Of a stretch of 64,000 nt of DNA, positions 2,048 through 26,641 are shown piece by piece. Numbering within the stretch: position 1 is the stretch's first letter; each line of letters opens with the position of its first letter. A program made the translations under genes and the position numbers. The notes beneath the pieces are model-generated. The model was not told the DNA's origin. It made no database searches and saw nothing but the letters and a program-made list of their open reading frames with translations. The DNA is from Tepidiforma bonchosmolovskayae (GTDB taxonomy: Bacteria; Chloroflexota; Dehalococcoidia; Tepidiformales; Tepidiformaceae), in the NCBI RefSeq assembly GCF_008838325.1, contig NZ_CP042829.1:434001-498000 (forward strand), given 5' to 3'.

Positions 2048-2223
2048 GGGGGCGTGCAGAGCTGCCCGGGGAGGCCATCGTGGTGATGCTCGCCAGGATG
2101 TGGGGGTGCCGGCCGTCGGAGGTGCTCGATGAGCCGCTCTGGGCCGTTGAGGCCGCGTTGGCCCTCATGGCCGCCGAGGCCGACATCGCCGATGAGGAGC
2201 GCCGCCGATGGCAGCAGCGCTGA
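1661..2223 (+). CDS. Tail assembly chaperone, -1 frameshift long form (G-T-like)
   Basis: The short frame contains C CCA AAC at 2011-2017, a standard X XXY YYZ slippery heptamer in the correct phase. A -1 shift there opens a second frame with no stop until the TGA at 2221-2223, giving a product of about 187 residues. The added part is rich in Leu, Ala, Glu and Arg and ends inside the tape measure gene, overlapping its ATG by 16 bp. This layout is the classic G/G-T arrangement of long-tailed phages. The second frame has no good start of its own. Frameshifting itself is inferred, not shown. Confidence 0.8.
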
Positions 2224-4751
2224 GCTTCGTGGTCAAGGCCGTCGATGAGGCGACCAGTGTCCTCAAGGGCATCGGCGACGAGGCCGAGGGCCTCGGCGGC
2301 AAGCTGGCCAAGGTGGGCGATTTCGCCGCGCGCGGCTTCGAGCAGCTGGGCAATGCGACCCTGGCCGGTGGCGCCGCTCTTGCAGGGTTCGGCACCGCAG
2401 CGGTCACAGCTTTCGCCGGGTTCGAGAAGGGGATGAACGAGGTCGCCACGCTTCTCCCCACCTTCAGCGACCAGCAGCTCGGCGAGCTCTCCAACAAGGT
2501 CCTGAAGCTCTCATCCGACCTGGGCGTCATGCCGAACGAGGTCGTGCCTGCGCTCTACCAGGCGCTCTCCGCTGGCGTCCCCGCGGATAACGTTATCGAC
2601 TTCCTGCAGACCTCCTTCAAGGCGGCGACCGCAGGCGCGGCCGATATGACCACCGCAGTCGACGCGCTCACCACCGTGGTCAACGCTTACGGGCCGTCGA
2701 CGATCGACTTTGCCAAGGCGTCGGACATTATTTTCACAACTGTTCGGCTCGGGAAAACCGACTTCGATCAGCTCAGCAAAACGTTGTTCAACGTCATCCC
2801 AACTGCCGCCTCGCTCGGAATCAAGTTCGAGGAGGTCGGCGCCGCCATGGCCGTGATGACGGCCCGGGGCGTGCCCACCTCCGTGGCGACCACTCAGCTC
2901 CGGGCCCTCATGGTCGAACTCAGCAAGGAGTCCACCAATATCTCCAAGGAGTTCGAGCGCATCTCTGGTAAGAGTTTCCCCGAGTTCATCCGCAGCGGGG
3001 GCAATCTCTCGCAGGCCTTGAACATCATGCGGGGCTCGATCCCGGATGACGAGTTCCGGAACCTCTTCAGTTCTGTCGAGGCCGCGAGCGCGGCGCTCCT
3101 CATTTCCGGGCCAAACTCCGAGGCGATGATGTCGGCGCTGGAGGAGATGCAGAAGTCGGCTGGCGCGACGGATGCGGCCTTCGACAAGATGGACCAGGGT
3201 ATCGCGCGTACGTGGGCGCGCATCAAGGCCAACGCGTCGGTCGCGATGATCTCCATCGGCGCCGCGATCGCCCCGCTGGCCGACAAGGCCCTCGGTGCGC
3301 TCGCCGAGAAGCTGCCGGTCGTCATCGACAAGGTCGGGGAGTCGATACAGAGAGCCCGCGACATGGTGGAGCCCGTCGCGGCGGCCCTGCGCGACAGGTT
3401 GGAGCCGCCCCTGCAGGCGCTCGGTGACCTCATCGACCATAAAGTTCGGCCCGTTTTTGAGCAGTTCGGTGAGTTCCTCAGGCGTCACGCCGACGACATC
3501 CGCGGCCCGGTCGGTGCGGCAATCGGGGGCGTGCTTGTGACCGCGCTCGCCGCTGCCGCCGTTGCTGCGGGTGCATTCGCAGCCAGCATGGTCGTGGCTG
3601 CCGCACCGGTCCTCGCGGTGGTAGCCGCAGTGGCCGCCATCAGCGCGGGAATCTACCTGCTCGTGACCCACTGGGACGACCTCAAGGCGCGCTTCCCGAT
3701 CCTGCAGGAGCTGGAGGATACGTTCCGCCGGGTGGCCGGGCAGGTAGGCGCCATCGTCGCCGAACTTGGCGGCCTGCTCATGGCCATCATCGACCGTGTG
3801 CGCGACGTGGTCGGCCAGGTGCGCCAGCACTGGGGCACCATCACGGACATCATGAGCGGGCCGGTGCAGATGGTGGCGGCGCTGGTCGAGGGGGCATTCA
3901 ACAACGTGCGGATCATCATCGAGACGGTACTGGGCGTCATCCGGGGCGTCATCCAGACCGTGACTGCCCTCATCAAGGGCGACTGGCAGGGCGCGTGGGA
4001 CGGCATTAAGCAGATCGGCGAGACGGTCTGGACCGGGATTAAGGCGCTCGTCCAGAACGGGATCGACACGATCAAGGGCATTTTCGAGGGGTTCGTGACG
4101 TTTTTCGGCGAGATTGGCCCGCGGATCTGGGGGGCAGCGAAGTCGATCTGGGAGACCGTCAAGACCGACGGGTGGCAGCTCATGCAGGAGATGGGCCAGA
4201 AGATCATCGACGTGTTCACGGAACTGCCCGGTAAGCTCCTCGACCTCGTTCCCAAGCTCCTCGACGCGGGCAAGGACTTGATGGGCGCGATTTTCGACGG
4301 CCTGAAATCGGCAGCCTCGGCCGTCGGCGGGTTCGCCGCGGACATTGCGGAGACGGTCGGCCGGGCCATCAAGTCCTTCATCAACGAGTTCGTCATCGAC
4401 CGGCTCAACAGGGCACTGGAGTTCACGATTCCCAACCCGCTCGGTCCAGATATCCACATCGACCCGCCGGACATTCCGCGCCTCGCGAGCGGCGGCATCA
4501 TCACCCGCGCAGGACTCGCGCTCGTGGGTGAGAGCGGCCCCGAACTGGTGCTGATGCCGGCCGGCGCCGCGGTGCTGCCCAACGCCATCGCCGCCGCGGT
4601 AGCAGGCGCGGTGCGCGGCGCCGGCGGCCCGCAGGTCACCGTGCAGGTCCTGGGCCCGGTGACCATCTCCGGCGAGCAGGACACCGAGCGGTTCGCGTCC
4701 GACCTCGGTCACGGGCTCGCCGCCAGCCTGCGTGCGCGAGGTGTGATGTGA
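2208..4751 (+). CDS. Phage tail tape measure protein
   Basis: The largest prophage gene (847 residues) lies directly after the chaperone pair. Residues about 1-35 form a helical start, about 60-340 match the TP901-type tape measure core (Phe-rich segment with GVP and LRALM motifs), a very hydrophobic Ala/Val stretch lies at about 437-486, and the rest is amphipathic helix. Tape measure proteins set tail length and are ejected into the cell during infection; the hydrophobic stretch may insert into the membrane. Near the end is the segment SGGIITRAGLALVGESGPEL, common at tape measure C-termini. It ends in a GTGA overlap with the distal tail gene. Confidence 0.9.
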   Translation: MAAALSFVVKAVDEATSVLKGIGDEAEGLGGKLAKVGDFAARGFEQLGNATLAGGAALAGFGTAAVTAFAGFEKGMNEVATLLPTFSDQQLGELSNKVLKLSSDLGVMPNEVVPALYQALSAGVPADNVIDFLQTSFKAATAGAADMTTAVDALTTVVNAYGPSTIDFAKASDIIFTTVRLGKTDFDQLSKTLFNVIPTAASLGIKFEEVGAAMAVMTARGVPTSVATTQLRALMVELSKESTNISKEFERISGKSFPEFIRSGGNLSQALNIMRGSIPDDEFRNLFSSVEAASAALLISGPNSEAMMSALEEMQKSAGATDAAFDKMDQGIARTWARIKANASVAMISIGAAIAPLADKALGALAEKLPVVIDKVGESIQRARDMVEPVAAALRDRLEPPLQALGDLIDHKVRPVFEQFGEFLRRHADDIRGPVGAAIGGVLVTALAAAAVAAGAFAASMVVAAAPVLAVVAAVAAISAGIYLLVTHWDDLKARFPILQELEDTFRRVAGQVGAIVAELGGLLMAIIDRVRDVVGQVRQHWGTITDIMSGPVQMVAALVEGAFNNVRIIIETVLGVIRGVIQTVTALIKGDWQGAWDGIKQIGETVWTGIKALVQNGIDTIKGIFEGFVTFFGEIGPRIWGAAKSIWETVKTDGWQLMQEMGQKIIDVFTELPGKLLDLVPKLLDAGKDLMGAIFDGLKSAASAVGGFAADIAETVGRAIKSFINEFVIDRLNRALEFTIPNPLGPDIHIDPPDIPRLASGGIITRAGLALVGESGPELVLMPAGAAVLPNAIAAAVAGAVRGAGGPQVTVQVLGPVTISGEQDTERFASDLGHGLAASLRARGVM

Positions 4752-21216: not shown

Positions 21217-22167
21217 ATGGGGATTTCGCCGGGAACGGAGGGTGCGCGGGAGCTGCCCCGGCGGTTGCCGAGTCCGGGGTTGGGCACGCTGCAGTACTGG
21301 AGCTGGCGGGCGGCGCGGGCGACGATCGGCCGGACGCCGGCGCCTGCGGCGTACCGGATCGCCGGGGGGCTCGGCGCTGCGGCGTACTGGCTCTGGCCGC
21401 GGGGCCGCCGGGCGATGCGGGCGAATTTCGCCCGGGTCCTGGGGACGGCCGAACAGGGGTTGGTCGACCGGGTGGGGCGCGCGTCGCTTGCGGCGTACTT
21501 CCGCTACCTGCTGGACTTCATGCGGCTGGGGAGCGGCAGGGCGCAGCTGCCGCGGGTGGATGGCGATGGGGCGTTCGCGGCGCTCGACCGGCTGCTGGCG
21601 CGGGGACGCGGCGCGGTGATTGTGTGCATGCATTATGGCAACTGGGATGCCGGGGCTGCCTACGCGGCATCGCGCGGCTATCCGCTCGCGGTCGTCGCGG
21701 AGGGATTCGGCGACCCGCGGCTGGATGCGCTGGTGCTGGGAACCCGGGAGCGGCTGGGGATGCAGGTCATCCGGATGGAGCGCGCGGGGCCATCGATGGT
21801 GCGCGTGTTAAAGCGGAACGGGCTGCTCGCTCTCCTCATCGACCGGCCCGTGCCGGGGGAGGGGGTCGAGGTGGAGTTTTTCGGCGAGGCAGTGCAGGTG
21901 CCGGCCGGGCCGGCGCGCCTGGCGCTTGCAACCGGTGCAGCCCTCGTGCCCGTGGCGTTCCGGAGGGTCGACCCCCTGGGCGAGCGGATGGAGGTCGTCG
22001 GCGATTTCTCGATCGTCCCCTGCGATGATGCGCGGCCGGAGTGCGTCCAGGTGCTGACGCAGCGGGTGATGCGGGCGCACGAGGCGTTCATCCGGGAGCG
22101 GCCCGAGCAGTGGTATATGTTCCGGGAGCTGTGGCGGGGGCCGGCGGACCGCCGGGGCGGAATATGA
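21217..22167 (+). CDS. LpxL/HtrB-type lipid acyltransferase (first copy)
   Basis: A 316-residue membrane-associated acyltransferase with the H-x4-D catalytic motif as HYGNWD (H139, D144), followed by the IDRPVPGEG and PAGPARLA blocks of the LpxL/PatA family. In actinobacteria PatA acylates phosphatidylinositol mannosides. It opens a five-gene operon with a second acyltransferase, a PHP protein, a PimA-like glycosyltransferase and a CDP-alcohol transferase. TACACT seven bases before the ATG and no ribosome site suggest a leaderless mRNA. It ends in an ATGA overlap. Confidence 0.8.
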   Translation: MGISPGTEGARELPRRLPSPGLGTLQYWSWRAARATIGRTPAPAAYRIAGGLGAAAYWLWPRGRRAMRANFARVLGTAEQGLVDRVGRASLAAYFRYLLDFMRLGSGRAQLPRVDGDGAFAALDRLLARGRGAVIVCMHYGNWDAGAAYAASRGYPLAVVAEGFGDPRLDALVLGTRERLGMQVIRMERAGPSMVRVLKRNGLLALLIDRPVPGEGVEVEFFGEAVQVPAGPARLALATGAALVPVAFRRVDPLGERMEVVGDFSIVPCDDARPECVQVLTQRVMRAHEAFIRERPEQWYMFRELWRGPADRRGGI

Positions 22168-23039
22168 GCGCGCAGGCGTGGGCGATGCGGGCAGCGCGTC
22201 TCGTGGCTGGCCGGCGGCCGGGGCCGTTCTATGCGGTGGCCCCGGCGGTTGCGCGGGTGACGTGGTGGCTGAATCCGCGGGTGCGTCGGCGTCTGACCCG
22301 GAACATGCTGCCGCTCTGCGAGGGTGACCGCTCGCGCGCACGGCGGGAGGGGCTCCGGGCGCTGCAGCATGTCCTGGAGTACTACCTCGACCTCGTGACG
22401 CTCCCCGGGCGGGATATGTCGCGGTTCGAGGCGGAGCACCTGGAGATTTTCCACGTCGAGCGGCTCGAGCTGCTGCGGACGAACGGCGCGGTGCTGCTGG
22501 TGAGCGCCCACACGGGCAATGCGGAGCTGGCGATCCAGGCGTTGACGTACCGCGGGCGGTCGTTTGTGGCGCTGGTCGAGCGGCTGGAACCGCGGGACTG
22601 GGCGGAGTACATGCTGAAGCTGCGCTCCTCGGCGGGGGGCACCTTTCTCGAGACAAACTTCGGCGGCGTTCGGACGTGCATCGAAACGCTGCGCGCGGGA
22701 GGGGTCGTGGGGATGATGGGCGACCGGGACATCCAGCACACGGGGGTGTGCACGCGGCTGTTCGACCGGCCGGTGCGGCTGCCGCGTGGGCCGTGGGAGC
22801 TGGCGCGCCGGACCGGGGCGCTGGTGATTCCGATCTTTTCGAGCCGGAAGCGAGGTGACCAGTTCCGGATCGATGTCGAAGAGCCGTTCAGGGTCGAGGA
22901 GACGGAGGACGCGGATGGCGATATCCGAGCCGCGGTGGAGCGGTTTGCGGGGCTGCTGGAGCGGCACCTGCGGCGGGACCCGGGCCAGTGGGCGGTGCTC
23001 GAGGATTTCTGGAGGGTGCACGCCTGTGGGGAAGGCTGA
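22164..23039 (+). CDS. LpxL/HtrB-type lipid acyltransferase (second copy, PatA-like)
   Basis: A 291-residue homologue of the gene before it, with the catalytic motif as HTGNAE, the H-x4-E form of PatA. GDRDIQHTG and LPRGPWELARRTGALVIPIF are the typical later blocks. Two divergent copies side by side suggest acylation at two positions of the same glycolipid. It starts inside an ATGA overlap and runs 14 bp into the PHP gene. Confidence 0.8.
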   Translation: MSAQAWAMRAARLVAGRRPGPFYAVAPAVARVTWWLNPRVRRRLTRNMLPLCEGDRSRARREGLRALQHVLEYYLDLVTLPGRDMSRFEAEHLEIFHVERLELLRTNGAVLLVSAHTGNAELAIQALTYRGRSFVALVERLEPRDWAEYMLKLRSSAGGTFLETNFGGVRTCIETLRAGGVVGMMGDRDIQHTGVCTRLFDRPVRLPRGPWELARRTGALVIPIFSSRKRGDQFRIDVEEPFRVEETEDADGDIRAAVERFAGLLERHLRRDPGQWAVLEDFWRVHACGEG

Positions 23040-23748
23040 CCTCCACCTCCACACGCGCGTGAGCGACGGCTTCGCGACGGTCGAGGAGCTGCTCGAGTGG
23101 GTGGAGCATGCCACGGACCTCGACGTCATCGCGGTGACGGACCACGAGGACGTCCGCGGCGGCCTGCGGGCGCGCGAGCTGGCCGCCCGGCGGAGTTACC
23201 GATTCGACGTCATCCCGGGTGCGGAGATTACGACGCTGCAGGGGCACGTGCTGGCGCTCTTCGTGGAGCGGGACCTGCCGAGCTTCCGGGGGGTAGAATC
23301 GACGCTCGCGATGATCCATGACGCCGGCGGCATCGCCATCGCGCCGCACCCGCTGAGCTGGCTGACGCGGTCGGTCGGCCGGCGGACGCTCGACAGCCTC
23401 CGGGAGCGGGCTGAGGCGGGCGTGCAGTTCGATGCCATCGAGCTGGCGAACCCGAGCCCGGCGGGCGTGCGGACGGGAGCGAAGGCTGCACGGCTGAATG
23501 CGGAGCTGTGGCGTTTGCCGGCGACGGGGAGTTCGGATGCGCACCACCTCGAGCATGTGGGCAGCGGCTGGACTGAGTTCCCGGGCCGGACGGCGGCCGA
23601 GCTGCGGCAGGCGATCGCCGACGGGACAACGCGGGCGGCAATGCGCCACCCGTCAGCGGTGCCGGCGGGCCGACTGGCGCTCGGGCTGGCGTGGGGCTAT
23701 ACGGCAACTCCGCGCAAGGTGGTGCGGATGCTGGGAGGCCGACGGTGA
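23026..23748 (+). CDS. PHP-domain phosphoesterase
   Basis: A 240-residue protein with the PHP metal-binding motifs in order: DLHLHTRVSDG at the start, VTDHED near residue 36, EITTLQGH near 65, HPLSW near 105 and SSDAHH near 165. The family includes phosphatases and exonucleases. Its place between the acyltransferases and the PimA-like gene suggests removal of a phosphate in glycolipid or inositol metabolism, which is an inference. GGAGGG lies nine bases before the GTG start; it ends in a GTGA overlap. Confidence 0.8.
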   Translation: MGKADLHLHTRVSDGFATVEELLEWVEHATDLDVIAVTDHEDVRGGLRARELAARRSYRFDVIPGAEITTLQGHVLALFVERDLPSFRGVESTLAMIHDAGGIAIAPHPLSWLTRSVGRRTLDSLRERAEAGVQFDAIELANPSPAGVRTGAKAARLNAELWRLPATGSSDAHHLEHVGSGWTEFPGRTAAELRQAIADGTTRAAMRHPSAVPAGRLALGLAWGYTATPRKVVRMLGGRR

Positions 23749-24899
23749 AAATCGCGCTTGTCAGCCCGTATGACTGGTGCGTCGAGGGCGGGGTGAAGAC
23801 GCATATCCGCCACCTTGCGGCGTCGTTCCGGGCATGGGGCCACGAGGTGGTGATCTTCGCGCCGGCGTCGGACGCGGAGCGGGTGAGGGACGAGGTTCAC
23901 GTGATGGGGCGGCCGTTTTCGATGCGGGTGAGCGGGTCGGTTGCGCGGATCACATTCGCGTGGAAGTCGCCGGAGGTGAAACGGGTGCTGCAGGAGCACC
24001 GTTTCGATGTGGTCCACCTGCACGAGCCGCTGATGCCGCTGCTGCCGTACCACTTCCTGCGATATTCACAGGCGGTGACGGTGGGGACGTTCCATGCAGC
24101 CAAGGACGGCGGGAACCGATTCTACGGGTACACTACGCCGCTCACGCGGCGATGGTTCCGGAAAATCGAGGGGAAGATCGCGGTTTCGCCGGCGGCGGCG
24201 AAGCTGGTAAGCCGGTACTTCCCGGGGTACTTCAACATCATCCCGAACGGGATCGATTACGAGCACTTCGCCGGGCCGGCGGAACCGTTCCCGGAGTTTA
24301 TGGACGGCCGGAAGAACATCCTGTTCGTGGGACGGCCGGAAAAGCGGAAGGGGCTCAAGTACCTGCTGAAGGCGTACCTGCGCATCCGGCAGCAGGAGCC
24401 GAACACGCGATTGATTGTGGTTGGCGCGGGCGATTTTTCGCGGTACGAGCGGGTCATGGCGCCATTCCCGGACGTGGTGTTCCGTCCGAACGTGCCGTAC
24501 GCGGACCTGCCCCGCTACCACAAGAGCTCGACGGTCTTTTGCGCGCCGAACACGGGGAACGAGAGCCAGGGGTATGTGCTGCTGGAGGCGCTGGCGGCCG
24601 GCGACGCGGTGGTGGCGAGCAATATCGAGGGGTTCGCCGGGGTGATGACGAACGAGGTCGAGGGGCTGCTGGTGCGCCCGAAAGACCCGGATGCCATCGC
24701 GGAGGCGGTGGTCCGGCTGCTGCGGAACCCGACGCTGCGGGAGACGTTCGGCGCACGGGGCCGGGAGCTGGCCCGGCACTACAGCTGGGACAACGTCGCG
24801 CACCGGGTGATGTCGTACTACGAACGGCTGCTCTACGAGCGGCAGCAGGTAGCGGAGACGCGGGCGCGGCGGGCTGCGCTGGCCGGGTCGGGCCGCTGA
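23745..24899 (+). CDS. GT4 glycosyltransferase, PimA-like
   Basis: A 384-residue glycosyltransferase of the GT-B fold. The start (KIALVSPYDWCVEGGVKTHI) and GTFHAA, NGIDYEHF, VGRPEKRKGL and NESQGYVLLEALAAG closely resemble PimA, the GDP-mannose:phosphatidylinositol mannosyltransferase. The E-x7-E donor-binding pattern lies in the last block. It should add the first mannose (or another hexose) to a phosphatidylinositol-like lipid on the cytoplasmic face. GTG start in a GTGA overlap; the stop overlaps the next ATG. Confidence 0.8.
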   Translation: MKIALVSPYDWCVEGGVKTHIRHLAASFRAWGHEVVIFAPASDAERVRDEVHVMGRPFSMRVSGSVARITFAWKSPEVKRVLQEHRFDVVHLHEPLMPLLPYHFLRYSQAVTVGTFHAAKDGGNRFYGYTTPLTRRWFRKIEGKIAVSPAAAKLVSRYFPGYFNIIPNGIDYEHFAGPAEPFPEFMDGRKNILFVGRPEKRKGLKYLLKAYLRIRQQEPNTRLIVVGAGDFSRYERVMAPFPDVVFRPNVPYADLPRYHKSSTVFCAPNTGNESQGYVLLEALAAGDAVVASNIEGFAGVMTNEVEGLLVRPKDPDAIAEAVVRLLRNPTLRETFGARGRELARHYSWDNVAHRVMSYYERLLYERQQVAETRARRAALAGSGR

Positions 24900-25489
24900 T
24901 GGGCGTGACGCTGCTGCCGACGCGGCTGCCGAAGGGCGTGCAGGATGCGATCGGCCGCTCGGTCGGCGGGCTCGGGATTACCCCGAACATGATTTCGCTC
25001 GCGGGCGCCGGGGGGAACGTCGCTGCGGCGGTGCTGGTGGCGCGTGGGCAGCTCCTGCCTGCGGGGCTCGTGTACCTGCTGTTTTCGGCGCTGGACCTGG
25101 TTGACGGGGCGGTCGCGCGGGCGACAGGGAAGGCGAGTCCGTTCGGGGCGGTCTTCGATGCGGTGCTCGACCGTGCGAGCGAGGCGATCGTGCTGGCCGC
25201 CTGCGCGTGGTACTTCGCGGAGCGCGGCGAGCAGTGGCAGACAGCGGCCTGCTTTGCGGCGCTCCTCGGCAGCGTATCGGTGAGCTACCTGCGGGCGCGG
25301 GCCGAGGTGGCAGGCGTACCCATGCGGGAAGGGCTGTTCCGCCGGCAGGAGCGGGTGGCCGTGCTCGGAGTGGGGCTGGTGCTCGGCTGGCTGACGGCGG
25401 CGATGGCCGTGCTGGCGGTGCTTTCGAACCTGACGGCGATCCAGCGGGCCTGGATGCTGGCGCAGGCGCTCCGGGACGAGCGCGGCTGA
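24899..25489 (+). CDS. CDP-alcohol phosphatidyltransferase (PgsA/PIP synthase-like)
   Basis: A 196-residue membrane protein with the full family signature D-x2-D-G-x2-A-R-x8-G-x3-D-x3-D, seen from DLVDGAVAR through FDAVLDR, and four to five hydrophobic helices. It transfers a phosphatidyl group from CDP-diacylglycerol to an alcohol. Next to PatA- and PimA-like genes, phosphatidylinositol phosphate synthesis is the natural guess, but glycerol phosphate cannot be excluded. It starts at the ATG of a TGATG junction. Confidence 0.8.
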   Translation: MGVTLLPTRLPKGVQDAIGRSVGGLGITPNMISLAGAGGNVAAAVLVARGQLLPAGLVYLLFSALDLVDGAVARATGKASPFGAVFDAVLDRASEAIVLAACAWYFAERGEQWQTAACFAALLGSVSVSYLRARAEVAGVPMREGLFRRQERVAVLGVGLVLGWLTAAMAVLAVLSNLTAIQRAWMLAQALRDERG

Positions 25490-25533: not shown

Positions 25534-26641
25534 ATGAACGAACTGCAGGCGCGCGCGCGCGAGCTTTCGGACCGGATCTCTGACCTCCTGGTGCGTCTTT
25601 GACCTCGCCAGGGATGAAGCTCGCGTAGCAGAACTCGAACAGCAGACCCTCGCACCCGGCTTTTGGGACGATGCAGCGACTGCGCGGAAGGTGATGCAGG
25701 AGCTGGCCGCCCGGCGTGAGCGCGTCGAAACGTGGCGCGGGCTGGAGCGGCGCGCCCGCGAGGCGGGTGAGCTGCTCGAGATGGCGGCAGCGGAGGACGA
25801 CGAGCAGACGGCCGAGGAGGTGCGGAAGGAGCTCGACGCCATCGAGGACGAGCTGCGGCGGCTCGAGTTCCAGCTGCAGCTCTCGGGGCCGTACGACATG
25901 CGGAACGCCATCCTGGCGGTACACGCCGGCGCCGGCGGGACAGATTCGCAGGACTGGGCCGAGATGCTGCTGCGGATGTACCTGCGCTGGGCCGAGCGGA
26001 AGGGGTTCGAGACCGAGATTCTCGACCTGACCGAGGGCGAGGAGGCGGGCATCAAGAGCGCGACGGTGGAGGTACGCGGGCCGTACGCCTACGGGTACCT
26101 CAAGAGCGAGCGCGGGGTCCACCGGCTGGTGCGGCTTTCGCCGTTCAACTCAGCGGCGACGCGGCAGACCAGCTTTGCGAAGGTGGAGGTGATGCCGGAG
26201 GTGGACGAGGTCGGCGAGATCGAGATCGACCCCGACGACCTGAAGATCGACGTGTTCCGCTCGAGCGGGGCCGGCGGCCAGAACGTGCAGAAGAACTCGA
26301 CGGCGGTACGCATCACGCATATCCCGACGGGGATTGTGGTGACGTGCCAGAACGAGCGGTCGCAGGCGCAGAACAAGGAGAGCGCCATGAAGGTGCTCGA
26401 GGCACGGCTGCTGGAGCTGGAGCTGAACCGGCAAGAAGAAGAAAAGGCGCGGCTGAAGGGCGAGCACGTTGACGTTTCGTTCGGGAGCCAGGTCCGCAAT
26501 TACGTGCTCCACCCGTATAAGCTGGTGAAGGACCTGCGGACGGGGTACGAAACGACGGACACGACAGCCGTTCTCGATGGCGAAATCGACCCGTTCATCG
26601 AGGCGTATCTGCGGGCGCAGGTCGGGCAGGAGGAGTCATGA
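25534..26641 (+). CDS. prfB: Peptide chain release factor 2 with programmed +1 frameshift
   Basis: The first frame (from the ATG at 25534) encodes 22 residues and stops at CGT CTT TGA, at 25594-25602. Skipping one base (T at 25600) continues as GAC CTC GCC into the long frame, giving 368 residues in all. This is the universal RF2 autoregulatory shift: poor TGA reading when RF2 is low allows slippage at CTT. The GGQ catalytic motif appears in SGAGGQNVQKN at about residue 247. The usual AGGGGG stimulator before CTTTGA is not evident. It overlaps the next gene by ATGA. Confidence 0.95.

Follow-up and report, generated by a model that had tools for sequence, protein, structure and literature searches.

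Results

A five-gene operon in Tepidiforma bonchosmolovskayae

The window, i.e. the whole stretch of 64,000 nucleotides analysed here, covers positions 434,001 to 498,000 of NZ_CP042829.1, the single 2.75 Mb contig of the genome of Tepidiforma bonchosmolovskayae (Chloroflexota, Dehalococcoidia). Between 21217 and 25489 it carries five forward-strand genes, which encode in this order a PatA-type acyltransferase (first copy, AT1, 21217..22167, ATG start), a second one (AT2, 22164..23039, ATG start), a PHP phosphoesterase (23026..23748, GTG start), a PimA-type glycosyltransferase of family 4 (GT4, 23745..24899, GTG start), i.e. a putative phosphatidylinositol mannosyltransferase, and a CDP-alcohol phosphatidyltransferase (24899..25489, ATG start) that we assign as a phosphatidylinositol phosphate (PIP) synthase. 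Starts, stops and overlaps were taken directly from the sequence: successive genes share 4 bp (ATGA), 14 bp, 4 bp (GTGA) and 1 bp (TGATG), in keeping with the 1-14 bp of the initial annotation, which had also placed the PHP enzyme mid-operon, where it sits between AT2 and GT4. The five genes are genuine and translationally coupled, and their order is far beyond chance since it is found identically in many other genomes. Upstream is a divergently oriented gene for an enoyl-CoA hydratase; the next gene downstream is prfB, which is outside the unit. We think it fairly probable that this is an operon for an acylated and mannosylated phosphatidylinositol (PI) of the mycobacterial kind, in which PHP would be the PIP phosphatase and AT1 and AT2 would acylate two positions. 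A published description of the operon was not found in the open-access literature searched.

The enzymes around the PHP protein

The last protein has a CDP-OH_P_transf domain (49.1 bits) and the motif D-x2-DG-x2-AR-x8-G-x3-D-x3-D, the four aspartates of which are present in 113/113 aligned homologues. Its best NCBIfam model is PIPSynth (NF045883), and its closest relatives of solved structure are actinobacterial PIP synthases, with 71.8 bits against the PDB sequences vs at most 27 bits for serine, choline and glycerol-phosphate enzymes. The inositol-phosphate ligands reported for MtPgsA1, namely R94, S132, Y133, R137, R152, R155 and R195 (PMC6506517), are all kept in the alignment with the window protein (7/7); in the 113 homologues R94, Y133, R152, R155 and R195 are invariant, S132 is found in 109 and R137 in 104. 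The initial annotation had named a grouping with phosphatidylglycerol-phosphate synthases as the outcome that would speak against its proposal. NCBIfam and PDB scores, together with the conservation of the ligands, rule out such an enzyme and place the transferase with PIP synthases.

A gene for inositol-1-phosphate synthase (INO1), the search for which had been proposed with the initial annotation, was found elsewhere in the genome (PF01658, 119.6 bits, cut-off 27; G000:C1:1513386-1513724, where G000 is the window genome). It is one gene of the long form (509 aa; locus L001:550-2073), unlinked to the operon, and its N-terminal extra part is weakly YdaS-like (21.6 bits, below cut-off). In many relatives the operon begins with a short INO1, and two genomes of the class (G074 and G142) have two full-length-domain INO1 matches each. 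The window genome also encodes a nucleotidyltransferase (L254, G000:C1:1446673-1447023) that most resembles the Thermococcales DIPP enzyme in its inositol-1-phosphate cytidylyltransferase half (105.6 bits to the model, cut-off 580) and may represent a second use of inositol phosphate.

GT4 (domain score 108 bits) aligns over its full length with PimA in the PDB, at 186.5 and 186 bits vs 62.5 bits for the next family, which bears out its earlier description as PimA-like. The same alignment, in which chain numbering is shifted for a tag, shows that it keeps H118, R196 and K202 of PimA, residues that we take to have roles in that enzyme.

Both acyltransferases have the Lip_A_acyltrans domain (AT1 122.5 bits, AT2 90.5 bits). 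The best NCBIfam model of AT1 is the PIM acyltransferase (NF005919; PIM, phosphatidylinositol mannoside), which AT2 matches at 109.2 bits (cut-off 209). Among PDB sequences AT1 scores 98.8 bits with PatA vs 24 with LpxM, and AT2 57.1 vs 21.5. We compared them with PatA at H126, D131, E149, R164, E200 and H284 (PMC4792965). AT1 keeps the first four and has D for E200 and Y for H284, whereas AT2 keeps H126, E149 and R164 and has E for D131, D for E200 and A for H284. Hence, the catalytic histidine, the acidic relay partner (Asp for E200) and the mannose-site residues E149 and R164 are present in both, and so are the motifs first noticed at this locus, H-x4-D in AT1 and H-x4-E in AT2. In a tree of 204 sequences built for the two ACYLTRANSFERASES (AT1, AT2), one branch holds 85/85 first copies, 1/88 second copies and 12 other sequences; the branch dividing first from second copies has a support of 0.41, with 1/173 copies misplaced. 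H-x4-D is commoner in first copies (75/95) and H-x4-E in second ones (57/95), neither strictly. AT1 and AT2 appear to be ancient paralogues, each with a role of its own.

The PHP protein

The PHP protein matches PHP_C with 48.7 bits and PHP with 23.0 bits, the latter just below the cut-off of 26.4. Twenty columns are invariant among 56 aligned orthologues, and these include the metal-site residues H9, D14, H40, E67, H74, H108, D171 and H173. The best match among PDB sequences reaches only 43.6 bits. The structure predicted for the protein (predicted local distance difference test, pLDDT, 93.1; predicted template modelling score, pTM, 0.90) has the PHP fold, its nearest structures being 3e38 (Z 21.6, root-mean-square deviation 2.3, 192 aligned residues) and 2anu (Z 21.5). 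The model has a predicted C-terminal helix at 214-237, considered as a possible membrane-binding element, for which the best hydrophobic moment over 18 residues is only 0.39. One genome of the same genus has two PHP copies, of which one is 99% identical to the window's (G118:C7:21722-22441); the near-identical copy lies on a 23-kb contig and is possibly a binning error.

PHP is linked to PIP synthase across Chloroflexota

A search of 148 genomes of the class with the PHP protein gave 74 matches of at least 129 bits, in 73 genomes, the remainder having 84 bits or less. In 60/74 of these orthologues a PIP synthase gene of the same strand follows downstream at a distance of up to 4 kb, compared with 0/27 of the strongest low-scoring rows, which are paralogues. 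In the remaining 14 it is 4.2 kb away (1), on another contig (12) or without a match in the genome (1). Some of these cases are contig breaks and others look like true separations; in two of them (L064/L063 and L066/L065) PHP keeps INO1, AT and GT4 while PIP synthase is elsewhere.

Gene arrangements were compared in 121 loci chosen around PIP synthase or PHP matches (the window, 80 from the class and 40 from the phylum). The most frequent were INO1-GT4-PIPS (26 loci; PIPS, PIP synthase), INO1-AT-AT-PHP-GT4-PIPS (25), INO1-AT-PHP-GT4-PIPS (11) and PIPS alone (11), followed by GT4-PIPS (8), AT-AT-PHP-GT4-PIPS (7, the window included) and PIPS-INO1-AT-AT-PHP-GT4 (5). The gene set spans classes of Chloroflexota, also in permuted form, and is not peculiar to the window genome. 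A second set consisted of the best 80 of at least 459 PHP relatives by similarity in named genomes, and overlaps partly with the first (e.g. HR29). GT4 or PIP synthase adjoins PHP in 72 of these best 80; in four others (L189, L205, L245, L248) the sequence ends within 450 bp downstream of PHP, and in one (L216) PHP has acyltransferases only.

Variants of the locus include L043 (G060, from the window's family), which is AT-AT-PHP-PIPS without GT4 and has 89 bp between the PHP and PIP synthase domains, and a PHP-less operon in which AT and GT4 are separated by a gene for a membrane glycosyltransferase resembling PMT_2 (21.8 bits, under the cut-off; L158:9497-11170). A tie between PHP and acylation is ruled out by the occurrence of PHP without AT (L070, L071, L088, L177, L188, L198, L204) and of AT without PHP (L153, L156, L157, L159-L161). 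In many Dehalococcoidia a second gene of the PHP family (NCBIfam PRK06361, 268 bits, cut-off 117) adjoins INO1 on the opposite strand (L079:4154-4840 and 17 other loci). As it occurs equally in PHP-bearing and PHP-less loci, it does not complement the absence of PHP and was rejected as a stand-in for it.

Two further groups are particularly informative. In six Ktedonobacteria-type loci (L228, L236, L237, L239, L241, L242) PHP is directly followed by PIP synthase, and GT4, AT and INO1 are missing from the locus. Three of these are in complete or near-complete genomes, those of Ktedonospora formicarum, Ktedonobacter racemifer DSM 44963 and Tengunoibacter tsumagoiensis, which have INO1 elsewhere and no PimA orthologue, their best GT4 matches being 64.3, 59.3 and 54.6 bits. 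Two Thermogemmatispora genomes have a GT4 of about 355 bits and keep AT-AT-PHP-GT4-PIPS. Since PHP and PIP synthase remain together when the other genes are gone, PHP follows PIP synthase and not the acyl or mannosyl steps. In Dictyobacter halimunensis PI is reported as a major polar lipid by thin-layer chromatography, along with unidentified glycolipids (PMC12453558). Dictyobacter and Tengunoibacter belong to the same family; the lipid data are those of D. halimunensis, the gene data those of Tengunoibacter.

Outside Chloroflexota, 45 genomes in the phylum of Candidatus Goldbacteria were searched and 18 loci fetched. PIPS-INO1-AT-GT4-AT-PHP is the arrangement in ten of the 18, and one further locus shows the last five of these genes up to the contig end; the other seven have lower PHP scores and no pathway neighbour. 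That a different phylum has these six genes, in a different order, is strong evidence of one pathway.

Other features of the window

The prfB gene at 25534-26641 contains CTT TGA C at 25597-25603, the classical stop-frameshift site, because of which its true start is near 25534 and not at 25691. Near the window start (2208-4751) lies a gene for a phage minor tail protein (tape measure, 110 bits).

Discussion

The PIM-like reading first given to this locus is strengthened by the presence of INO1 and by the families and conserved residues of PIP synthase, GT4 and the acyltransferases. In the pathway that we propose, INO1, encoded elsewhere in the window genome, would make inositol-3-phosphate, which the CDP-alcohol transferase would join to CDP-diacylglycerol to give PIP. 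PHP would then take the inositol phosphate group off PIP to yield PI, GT4 would add mannose from GDP-mannose to give PIM1, and AT1 and AT2 would each add one acyl chain. What the sequences show is the presence of the genes, their families, the conserved residues and a linkage kept in two phyla; the substrates, the PHP step, the sugar and the acylated positions are predictions.

In bacteria, inositol phospholipids of mycobacterial type arise by way of a phosphorylated intermediate. The phosphatase converting PIP to PI in mycobacteria was called unidentified in papers of 2019 and 2022 (PMC6506517; PMC9385802). In Bacteroides this role falls to BT_1525, a PgpA-like protein (PMC9246714). PgpA (PF04608) was not found in 145/148 genomes of the class, the window genome included, and the three that have it all belong to one family. 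PHP is the sole phosphoesterase of the gene set and its sole member without an assigned step. As the conversion of PIP to PI is the only step without an enzyme and PHP the only enzyme without a step, genomic linkage suggests that PHP is a good candidate for the PIP phosphatase. With PHP conserved in the operon, the mycobacteria-like pathway gains a candidate for this long-missing phosphatase.

Several observations weigh against this interpretation. PIP synthase is found in 144 and INO1 in 142 of the 148 genomes of the class, yet PHP orthologues are found in 73. The 26 loci with INO1-GT4-PIPS lack PHP, so that either another phosphatase exists there or PHP does something else. There are PHP-only loci in the 121-locus and Goldbacteria sets, and among the best 80 PHP relatives three (L211, L238, L247) have no pathway neighbour despite remaining sequence. 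In 12/66 PHP orthologues Q replaces H7 of the metal motif, the structures nearest to the model (3e38 and 2anu) are uncharacterised, and nucleases and phosphodiesterases share the fold. PIP synthase and AT1 miss the cut-offs of their best NCBIfam models (122.9 bits for a cut-off of 170, and 171.6 for 209). Finally, the window genome has no TIGR01479 match for a GDP-mannose pyrophosphorylase. The supply of GDP-mannose would rest on a gene at G000:C1:541740-542429, whose best match is the model of the Rv-type mannose-1-phosphate guanylyltransferase (228 bits vs 127 for the next), well below its cut-off of 440.

Some of these facts fit a PIM-like operon in which a general lipid phosphatase dephosphorylates PIP and PHP acts on another phosphate ester, e.g. 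free inositol phosphate (in making inositol or limiting the precursor), a phosphodiester of cyclic or lyso-lipid type, or the head group of a glycolipid. The many genomes with PIP synthase and INO1 but without a PHP orthologue favour this alternative, as does the chemical diversity of PHP enzymes. Yet a glycolipid substrate is disfavoured by the fact that PHP still adjoins PIP synthase in loci without GT4, AT and INO1, and a phosphatase acting on free inositol phosphate would presumably drain the pathway, since this is the substrate of PIP synthase. We regard the alternative as unlikely overall, though it is the rival to be taken most seriously. It is harder still to credit that PHP is linked by chance or by shared regulation and plays no part in lipid synthesis. 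The gene is not universal and some orthologues stand alone, but it persists in at least four arrangements and two phyla with its metal-site residues conserved, which makes this very improbable.

The PimA-like GT4 might also have changed its donor, in which case the inositol glycolipid made would carry another sugar in place of mannose. The missing TIGR01479 match would fit, and an alignment alone does not reveal the donor. Yet the alignment with PimA runs from end to end and the genome has the guanylyltransferase-like gene, and we consider such a change rather improbable.

Our preferred reading, that of a PIM-type operon with PHP as PIP phosphatase, can be taken further. PHP might be dedicated to the dephosphorylation of PIP, without relation to the PgpA-like enzyme of Bacteroides, and AT2 might be a second, dedicated acyltransferase for the inositol, the six-gene operons then encoding the full route to diacylated PIM1. 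We put this forward tentatively, as somewhat less probable than its contrary. In mycobacteria PatA acylates the mannose and the inositol acyltransferase is described as unidentified (PMC9490103), and the two AT lineages offer a handle on this unassigned second acylation. The same authors speculate that the mycobacterial enzyme is distinct from PatA, which argues against equating it with AT2. If our proposal is true, AT2 would take the inositol-acylation step that is unassigned in mycobacteria, and the single locus of the relatives would lead from glucose-6-phosphate and CDP-diacylglycerol to diacylated PIM1 outside Actinobacteria, in at least two phyla. Mannosylated inositol lipids would then also occur in Chloroflexota and Goldbacteria, two phyla with little-known envelopes. 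The initial annotation had seen here an anchored glycolipid of a lineage with a poorly known envelope: the glycolipid part is supported, whereas the arrangement turns out to be widespread in Chloroflexota and not specific to the lineage.

The PHP protein has its fold and metal motifs in common with CehA/McbA, RNase AM and 3',5'-nucleoside bisphosphate phosphatase. We know of no enzyme of these kinds that acts on a phospholipid, and PHP would, to our knowledge, be the first PHP enzyme to do so. The Bacteroides cluster BT_1522-BT_1526 also brings together genes for INO1, PIP synthase and a PIP phosphatase, but its phosphatase is PgpA-like and not PHP, and the portions of PMC9246714 drawn on here mention neither PimA nor PatA. 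The closest parallel is the actinobacterial PIM pathway (PgsA1, PatA, PimA), as PIP synthase, GT4 and the acyltransferases are each closest to actinobacterial solved structures. The actinobacterial gene order is pgsA-patA-pimA, so that the earlier description of the order as reversed is a fair one. The operon differs further from its actinobacterial counterpart in having PHP inside it and two PatA paralogues instead of one and, in the relatives, in being led by INO1.

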